A stretch of 64,000 nt of DNA, taken from assembly GCA_013178095.1 (NCBI GenBank), contig JABLXK010000003.1, forward strand, positions 248,001-312,000, in the 5' to 3' direction. Below the pieces are notes generated by a model. The model saw only the letters and a list, made by a program, of their open reading frames with translations. It ran no database searches and had not been told where the DNA came from. The stretch comes from Anaerolineae bacterium. Lineage in GTDB: Bacteria > Chloroflexota > Anaerolineae > Anaerolineales > Anaerolineaceae. Made by a program: the position numbers and the translations under genes. Shown here in pieces: positions 40,868-41,037 of this stretch; the first letter of the stretch is position 1, and each line of letters starts with the position of its first letter.

Positions 40868-40898
40868 AAAAAAATCCGCCGGCGTATGCCAGCGGATT
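40868..40898 (-). terminator. Intrinsic terminator in the yedE leader
   Basis: On the minus strand AATCCGCTGGC pairs with GCCGGCGGATT (11 bp, one G-U) around a 4-base loop and is followed by seven U (40868-40874). It lies about 120 bases before yedE. Confidence 0.93.
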
Positions 40899-40941
40899 CT
40901 GGAGTCAATGGAATGGACTCAGAAAAGAACTGGCATATCGC
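40882..40941 (-). promoter_or_regulatory. Candidate antiterminator of the selenium operon
   Basis: The strand GCGAUAUGCCAG (40930-40941) is complementary to CUGGCAUACGC (40882-40892), which is the 5' arm and loop of the terminator: 8 bp, a bulged A, then 3 bp. The two pairings exclude each other. The 5' antiterminator strand lies 9 nt upstream of the second stop codon of the leader ORF, so a ribosome that reads through the first UGA would cover it. A small hairpin GAGUC/GACUC sits in between. Confidence 0.75.
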
Positions 40942-41011
40942 AACGGGTCAATGAGCGCTGACCAGCGCTCTGGCGATTGATTCAATAACGGTGATAAAAA
41001 TCTTTGATCAT
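40919..41011 (-). CDS. Putative selenocysteine leader peptide of the selenium operon
   Basis: A mini-ORF starting at ATG 41009-41011, with AGAGGA 5 bases upstream and a perfect extended -10 promoter just before. It reads MIKDFYHRY, then UGA (40982-40984), then INRQSAGQRSLTRCDMPVLF and a stop (40919-40921). A SECIS-like hairpin begins exactly 11 nt after the UGA. Selenium-dependent readthrough would move the ribosome onto the antiterminator strand. This is a 9-residue peptide without readthrough and 30 residues with Sec at position 10. No such gene is known to me; it is proposed from layout. Confidence 0.65.
40948..40980 (-). promoter_or_regulatory. SECIS-like element in the leader ORF
   Basis: The core hairpin (40953-40970) is GAGCGCU-GGUC-AGCGCUC, 7 bp with an apical GGUC; it starts 11 nt after UGA 40982-40984. 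A lower stem UCAAU/AUUGA encloses it, with a 5-nt bulge. In E. coli fdhF the SelB-binding hairpin likewise begins 11 nt after UGA and has GGUC in its loop (AGGUCU). The bulged U of the E. coli element is not present in the upper stem. Confidence 0.75.
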
Positions 41012-41028
41012 TGAATTCCTCTGCCTGA

Positions 41029-41037
41029 ATTATAGCA
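41029..41037 (-). promoter_or_regulatory. Extended -10 promoter of the selenium operon
   Basis: On the minus strand TGCTATAAT is a perfect extended -10 element. There is no good -35 box, as is common for this class. Transcription should start near 41022, only about 10 bases before the leader-peptide ATG. Confidence 0.8.

Follow-up and report, generated by a model that had tools for sequence, protein, structure and literature searches.

Introduction

Ribosome-mediated attenuation is a known kind of regulation, and in the attenuators of the amino-acid operons (trp, his, leu, phe) a short translated leader carries a control codon at which the position of the ribosome selects between mutually exclusive antiterminator and terminator structures. 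A stop codon is the sensor in prfB, where an in-frame UGA forms part of a feedback loop; there, frameshifting inside the gene itself senses RF2, and the loop involves neither a leader peptide of its own nor a transcription terminator. In bacterial selenoprotein genes such as fdhF, an in-frame UGA is closely followed by a SECIS hairpin with a guanosine in its small apical loop. A SECIS-type element is also located 5' of the selenium-related selAB operon of E. coli, and is reported to act through SelB binding on translation, without a UGA-interrupted leader ORF or a terminator switch.

The leader described here lies in a 64,000-nucleotide stretch of an Anaerolineae genome (the window) and bears a likeness to each of these systems. 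It shares its general layout with the amino-acid attenuators, including, in many of its relatives, the 1:2 helix; in contrast to them, its control codon is a stop codon whose recoding would depend on SelB and on a SECIS-type hairpin, so that the supply of Sec-tRNA-Sec (selenium) would be sensed and failure at the codon would mean translation termination, not only stalling at a sense codon. Compared with selAB it adds a UGA-interrupted ORF and a terminator switch, and unlike the fdhF-type SECIS its hairpin would serve to regulate the operon 3' of it rather than to make a selenoenzyme. Neither Rfam nor the open literature, which leaves out most subscription papers and so gives no proof of absence, yielded a leader that couples UGA recoding to transcription termination.

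The leader is very likely a ribosome-mediated transcription attenuator in which a UGA read as selenocysteine is the sensor, such that plentiful selenium represses the genes for its own acquisition. If true, the device would be a new type of sensor for selenium and a concrete candidate for one that monitors the end product, Sec-tRNA-Sec, by way of the expanded genetic code itself; the leader would also be a marker pointing to candidate selenium-uptake genes.

Architecture of the leader and its operon

A first-pass annotation of the window had placed a selenium-sensing attenuator in front of yedE, and every element that it listed between 41037 and 40868 of the minus strand was found when checked on the sequence (Table 1). 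Nine codons, including the ATG at 41011-41009, precede the UGA, which is separated from the SECIS-type hairpin by an 11-nt spacer (40981-40971); behind the UGA the frame runs for 20 codons to a TGA stop at 40921-40919. The antiterminator strand GCGAUAUGCCAG pairs over 11 bp, with one bulged A, with CUGGCAUACGC (40892-40882), which forms the end of the 5' arm and the loop of the terminator.

Table 1. Features of the leader and of the operon 3' of it (window coordinates).
Feature	Position	Strand	Basis
Extended -10 promoter element TGCTATAAT	41029-41037	minus	sequence; candidate only
Shine-Dalgarno-like AGAGGA	41017-41022	minus	sequence
Leader ORF MIKDFYHRY-U-INRQSAGQRSLTRCDMPVLF	40919-41011	minus	sequence; second UGA is the stop
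In-frame UGA, proposed selenocysteine/sensor codon	40982-40984	minus	invariant in 21-leader alignment; tRNA-Sec and SelB in genome
SECIS-type hairpin GAGCGCU-GGUC-AGCGCUC, 7 bp, GGUC loop	40953-40970	minus	11 nt past UGA
Antiterminator strand GCGAUAUGCCAG	40930-40941	minus	core starts 14 nt 3' of SECIS-type hairpin
Intrinsic terminator AUCCGCUGGC-AUAC-GCCGGCGGAU and U run	40868-40897	minus	sequence, own hairpin search, RNA folding
yedE, YedE family putative selenium transporter	39618-40748	minus	TIGR04112, 476 bits (cut-off 200)
SirA/TusA-like protein (YedF N-terminal domain-like)	39409-39618	minus	TIGR03527, 54 bits, below family cut-off of 110
Cysteine desulfurase family protein, selenocysteine lyase-like	38203-39405	minus	TIGR01977, 458 bits, cut-off of 377 exceeded
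selD with in-frame UGA (MTEKERKIRLTELAACSGUASKYS...)	36965-38017	minus	translation with TGA as U; TIGR00476, 285 bits, for the part after the UGA

The leader RNA folds with -63.2 kcal/mol (z -5.3), a stability equalled by none of 200 shuffles, and its minimum-energy structure is the antiterminator form with the SECIS-type hairpin in place. A terminator pattern scan did not flag the leader terminator in the window, which was detected by both our own hairpin search and RNA folding. A scan for -35/-10 patterns also passed over the leader promoter (extended -10, weak -35), and TGCTATAAT is therefore treated as a candidate. At the leader site no Rfam family reached its gathering score. Two riboswitches of known type are present elsewhere in the window: a c-di-GMP-I-GGC riboswitch (66 bits, 41164-41251, plus strand), which lies on the strand opposite the leader and is followed by a divergent gene (41288-42952) resembling an EAL-domain protein, and a SAM (S-box) riboswitch (87 bits, 9797-9897, minus strand).

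The family models bear out the annotation of the operon as one encoding a putative selenium transporter and SelD, in the order yedE-tusA-desulfurase-selD on the minus strand. For selD the upstream ATG was chosen as the start; since the gene contains an in-frame UGA, the ORF listed from 37780 covers only part of it. The hairpin behind the selD UGA is shorter than that of the leader and its spacing is unlike the leader's. The proposed reading requires SelB and tRNA-Sec, and the genome encodes both (373 bits, and 68 bits, above the cut-off, respectively). A formate dehydrogenase, sought in the same genome for comparison of its SECIS, gave sub-threshold matches only.

Homologous leaders and their covariation

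DNA similarity searches across relatives recovered few homologues of the leader, whereas anchoring on yedE was productive: searching for this gene in the order and in a named genome collection gave approximately 90 upstream regions, some of them redundant. When 93 such regions, again with some redundancy, were scanned for a start codon with Shine-Dalgarno (SD) sequence, a UGA, a gap of about 11 nt and a hairpin, 26 outscored all 1,860 dinucleotide shuffles; one scanned region (L061) is not a true upstream region, its contig ending at yedE. Further leaders, such as that of Ornatilinea apprima (L065), were spotted by eye.

In an alignment of 21 leaders (A3) the UGA is invariant and the 11-nt spacer ungapped. 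The SECIS-type hairpin is paired in 100% of cells with double-sided changes in six of its seven pairs, a result seen in 0 of 500 shuffles, and pairing falls to 34-48% when the partner is slid out of register. One sequence (L132), misplaced by MAFFT, was excluded from the model. The loop is GGUC in the window and most commonly GGUU, GGUC, AGUU or GGAC in relatives, in keeping with a feature of SECIS loops (PMC1088965). A near-identical hairpin, GGATGCC-GGTC-GGCATCC, is found 20 nt past an apparent in-frame UGA in an HdrA-like gene at about 1470-1530 on the reverse strand of another locus (L187, G677), which favours a SECIS identity for the leader hairpin.

The UGA/hairpin region was made into a covariance model (R1), the E-values of which are rough. 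Of 396 genomes in the class, 39 contained a match to it, exactly one each. One match stops at a contig edge (L148), and two weak ones, L182 (E 0.006) and L194, look false. The search of the phylum outside the class gave no credible match, and two weak ones in unrelated sequence. Desulfobacterota may have divergent versions of the leader (L071, L086, L094, L111, L139), for which support from the scan is weaker in the individual sequences. Many leader carriers are MAGs, and one locus (L091) is labelled Fermentibacteria; such labels may be wrong.

Terminators occur widely and none of the elements is long, so an ordinary terminator might be accompanied by a hairpin and an ORF through chance. This is extremely improbable given that no shuffle scored as high as the top 26 leaders, that covariation is seen both within the hairpin and between antiterminator and terminator, that the matches are specific in their genomic position and that the whole arrangement is conserved in relatives; on the shuffles, the covariation and the genomic specificity the chance reading was rejected.

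In Chloroflexota that carry yedE, the leader is associated with SelB. Of those whose upstream sequence is available, 24 genomes with the leader have SelB and two do not, compared with two and five, respectively, of those in which the leader is absent (p = 0.0016); two genomes whose contigs end at yedE (G271, G121) were omitted, their upstream sequence being missing. SelB is common across the class (314 of 396 genomes) and the class-wide association, with SelB in 35 of the 39 model-positive genomes, is not significant alone (p = 0.10). Three of the four model-positive genomes lacking a SelB match are 71-88% complete.

Conservation of the reading frame through the UGA

The reading frame was examined in 35 distinct leaders found by model R1, which is itself blind to frame. 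All 35 remain open for at least 20 codons past the UGA, compared with 22 and 20 in the other two frames (p = 6e-5 and 9e-6), and after thinning of close relatives the counts are 13 of 13 versus 6 and 6. An in-frame start with SD lies 3-13 codons 5' of the UGA in 32 of the 35; the corresponding counts for the remaining frames are 0 and 2.

These counts bear upon the possibility that SelB, with or without Sec-tRNA, regulates directly by binding the leader hairpin, the ORF past the UGA being incidental. A SECIS-type hairpin in a leader would suit such a mechanism, and there is a precedent in the SECIS-based translational control of E. coli selAB, reportedly the subject of work by Thanbichler & Boeck in 2002 (cited in PMC8124441). 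Nevertheless, the conservation of a start in frame with the UGA and of the open frame beyond it, together with a conserved terminator and a covarying antiterminator, makes this unlikely.

An open frame with an in-frame UGA and a SECIS-type hairpin would also be expected of a small functional selenoprotein that precedes the operon by happenstance, and the motif HRR(T)-Sec does recur among the leaders before and at the UGA. However, the peptide is highly variable outside the hairpin and the R1/R2 segments described below, its length past the UGA ranges from 20 to 50 codons across relatives, its conserved residues are explained by the conserved RNA pairings, and a terminator separates the ORF from the operon. 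This reading is very unlikely and was rejected on these grounds.

Five leaders from Chloroflexota and Desulfobacterota (L149, L155, L071, L086 and L094) have two in-frame UGAs one codon apart (UxU), an arrangement for which the attenuator model does not account.

Terminator, antiterminator and the proposed mechanism

By our own criteria a terminator is present in 39 of 54 distinct leaders; some of the 15 in which these criteria found none may act on translation or otherwise. The antiterminator core begins 14 nt 3' of the hairpin in nearly all relatives and pairs better with the end of the 5' arm and the loop of its own terminator than with those of other leaders (608 versus 455 +/- 19; 0 of 2000 permutations, counts which are not strict probabilities because the leader sequences are related). 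The loop has no pairing role within the terminator itself, and taken alone it forms 121 of 156 pairs with the antiterminator (99.5 +/- 3.8 expected from permutation; 0 of 2000). The covariation holds among 18 leaders of less than 65% identity (0 of 5000) and among 12 of less than 60% (0 of 5000 overall, 12 of 5000 for the loop). Of the refuting conditions put forward with the annotation, those open to sequence comparison did not arise: the UGA, the hairpin and the competing pairings persist in homologous leaders, where the pairings show compensatory changes.

The frame of the window leader and of its closest relatives continues for 20 codons past the UGA, with the antiterminator strand immediately 5' of the second stop, so a ribosome terminating there would cover much of the strand. 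In masked-ribosome folding of the window leader, the free RNA prefers the antiterminator (0.87), and the probability of the terminator is 0.57 when the ribosome sits at the UGA and 1.00 when it sits at the second stop; five of six window-type leaders behave in this manner and none is reversed. Most other leaders have about 25 codons past the UGA and an additional pairing between R1, the run of codons leading up to the UGA (in many cases CAC-CGC-CGC-ACC, for HRRT-Sec), and R2, a GGGCGGCG-type segment beside the antiterminator strand. The summed R1:R2 pairing is -1007 kcal/mol, versus -809 +/- 23 when R1 is swapped (0 of 200). This 1:2 pairing is significant in many leaders and not so in the window and its closest relatives, for which reason the window is not classed as trp-type. 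Leaders with R1:R2 appear from their sequence to follow the trp-type 1:2/2:3/3:4 layout with the UGA as control codon. Their equilibrium folding is mixed, with 11 in the expected direction and 7 reversed; co-transcriptional timing would matter in these leaders, and equilibrium folding is not decisive. The first-pass proposal, in which the antiterminator is covered by a ribosome that has reached the second stop, holds for the window and its closest relatives and is incomplete for most others, in which R1:R2 is added; its general interpretation is supported.

The leader combines a UGA and adjacent stem-loop, as in a bacterial SECIS, with the translated ORF (its start and SD supported by comparison), terminator and exclusive antiterminator of an attenuator, the candidate control codon being a UGA linked to a SECIS-type hairpin 5' of selenium genes. 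From this we infer selenocysteine insertion at the leader UGA, termination in vivo and a response to selenium in the following direction. With ample selenium, SelB and Sec-tRNA-Sec, under the guidance of the SECIS-type hairpin, would let the leading ribosome past the UGA to the second stop, where it would occupy the antiterminator strand; the terminator would then form and transcription would end before yedE-tusA-desulfurase-selD. With selenium short, the ribosome would wait or terminate at the first UGA, leaving the downstream strand free to pair with the 5' arm and loop of the terminator, and transcription would go on. The net outcome would be negative feedback on selenium acquisition and activation, and in many relatives the R1:R2 pairing appears to reinforce the same logic, as in the trp attenuator. 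In E. coli, insertion of Sec at a UGA depends on selenium supply and is about 30-40% efficient, slow and accompanied by a long pause (PMC4513850); recoding of this kind could narrow the response of the attenuator.

The same pause might give the opposite sign, if a ribosome held during Sec insertion covered R1 and so caused antitermination at high selenium, inducing an operon for export or detoxification. YedE has also been suggested to be an exporter (PMC5322559), and some R1:R2 leaders are reversed in equilibrium folding. Against this, the window-type leaders have no significant R1:R2 and in them the antiterminator is covered once the ribosome is at the second stop; the regulated genes include those for SelD and the desulfurase, which activate selenium; and in Methanococcus maripaludis selenium starvation raises yedE mRNA (PMC11097638), which, this organism being an archaeon, supports only the regulatory logic. 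Induction by selenium is accordingly considered quite unlikely, whereas the sign predicted for repression by selenium agrees with the kind of genes controlled.

Genes associated with the leader

Nearly all credible matches to model R1 are located 5' of selenium genes (yedE, selD, desulfurase, yedF) or of transporter operons. In most, yedE is directly 3' of the leader; elsewhere the leader is followed by a Sec-type selD, by yedF-like genes, by a desulfurase accompanied by more genes of the selenium cluster, or by one of the transporter operons described below. These leaders are likely to be cis-acting selenium sensors of a single class, with transcription termination depending on whether or not one UGA is recoded, and to define a Chloroflexota selenium regulon which includes the yedE-selD operons and two sorts of candidate importer.

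One leader (L177/L199; G611, 40-3838) lies 5' of genes for a PCC-domain protein and the S, T and A components of an ECF transporter, a candidate importer of a selenium compound. Another (L198; G359, 1-6149) lies 5' of a TIM-barrel gene and of genes for an ABC transporter of the Phn type (2-aminoethylphosphonate-like) and SelD; the operon, in which SelD comes last, encodes a candidate ABC importer of selenium. The latter operon recalls the PgtC- and PhnU-annotated transporter genes of M. maripaludis, expression of which also rises on selenium starvation (PMC11097638).
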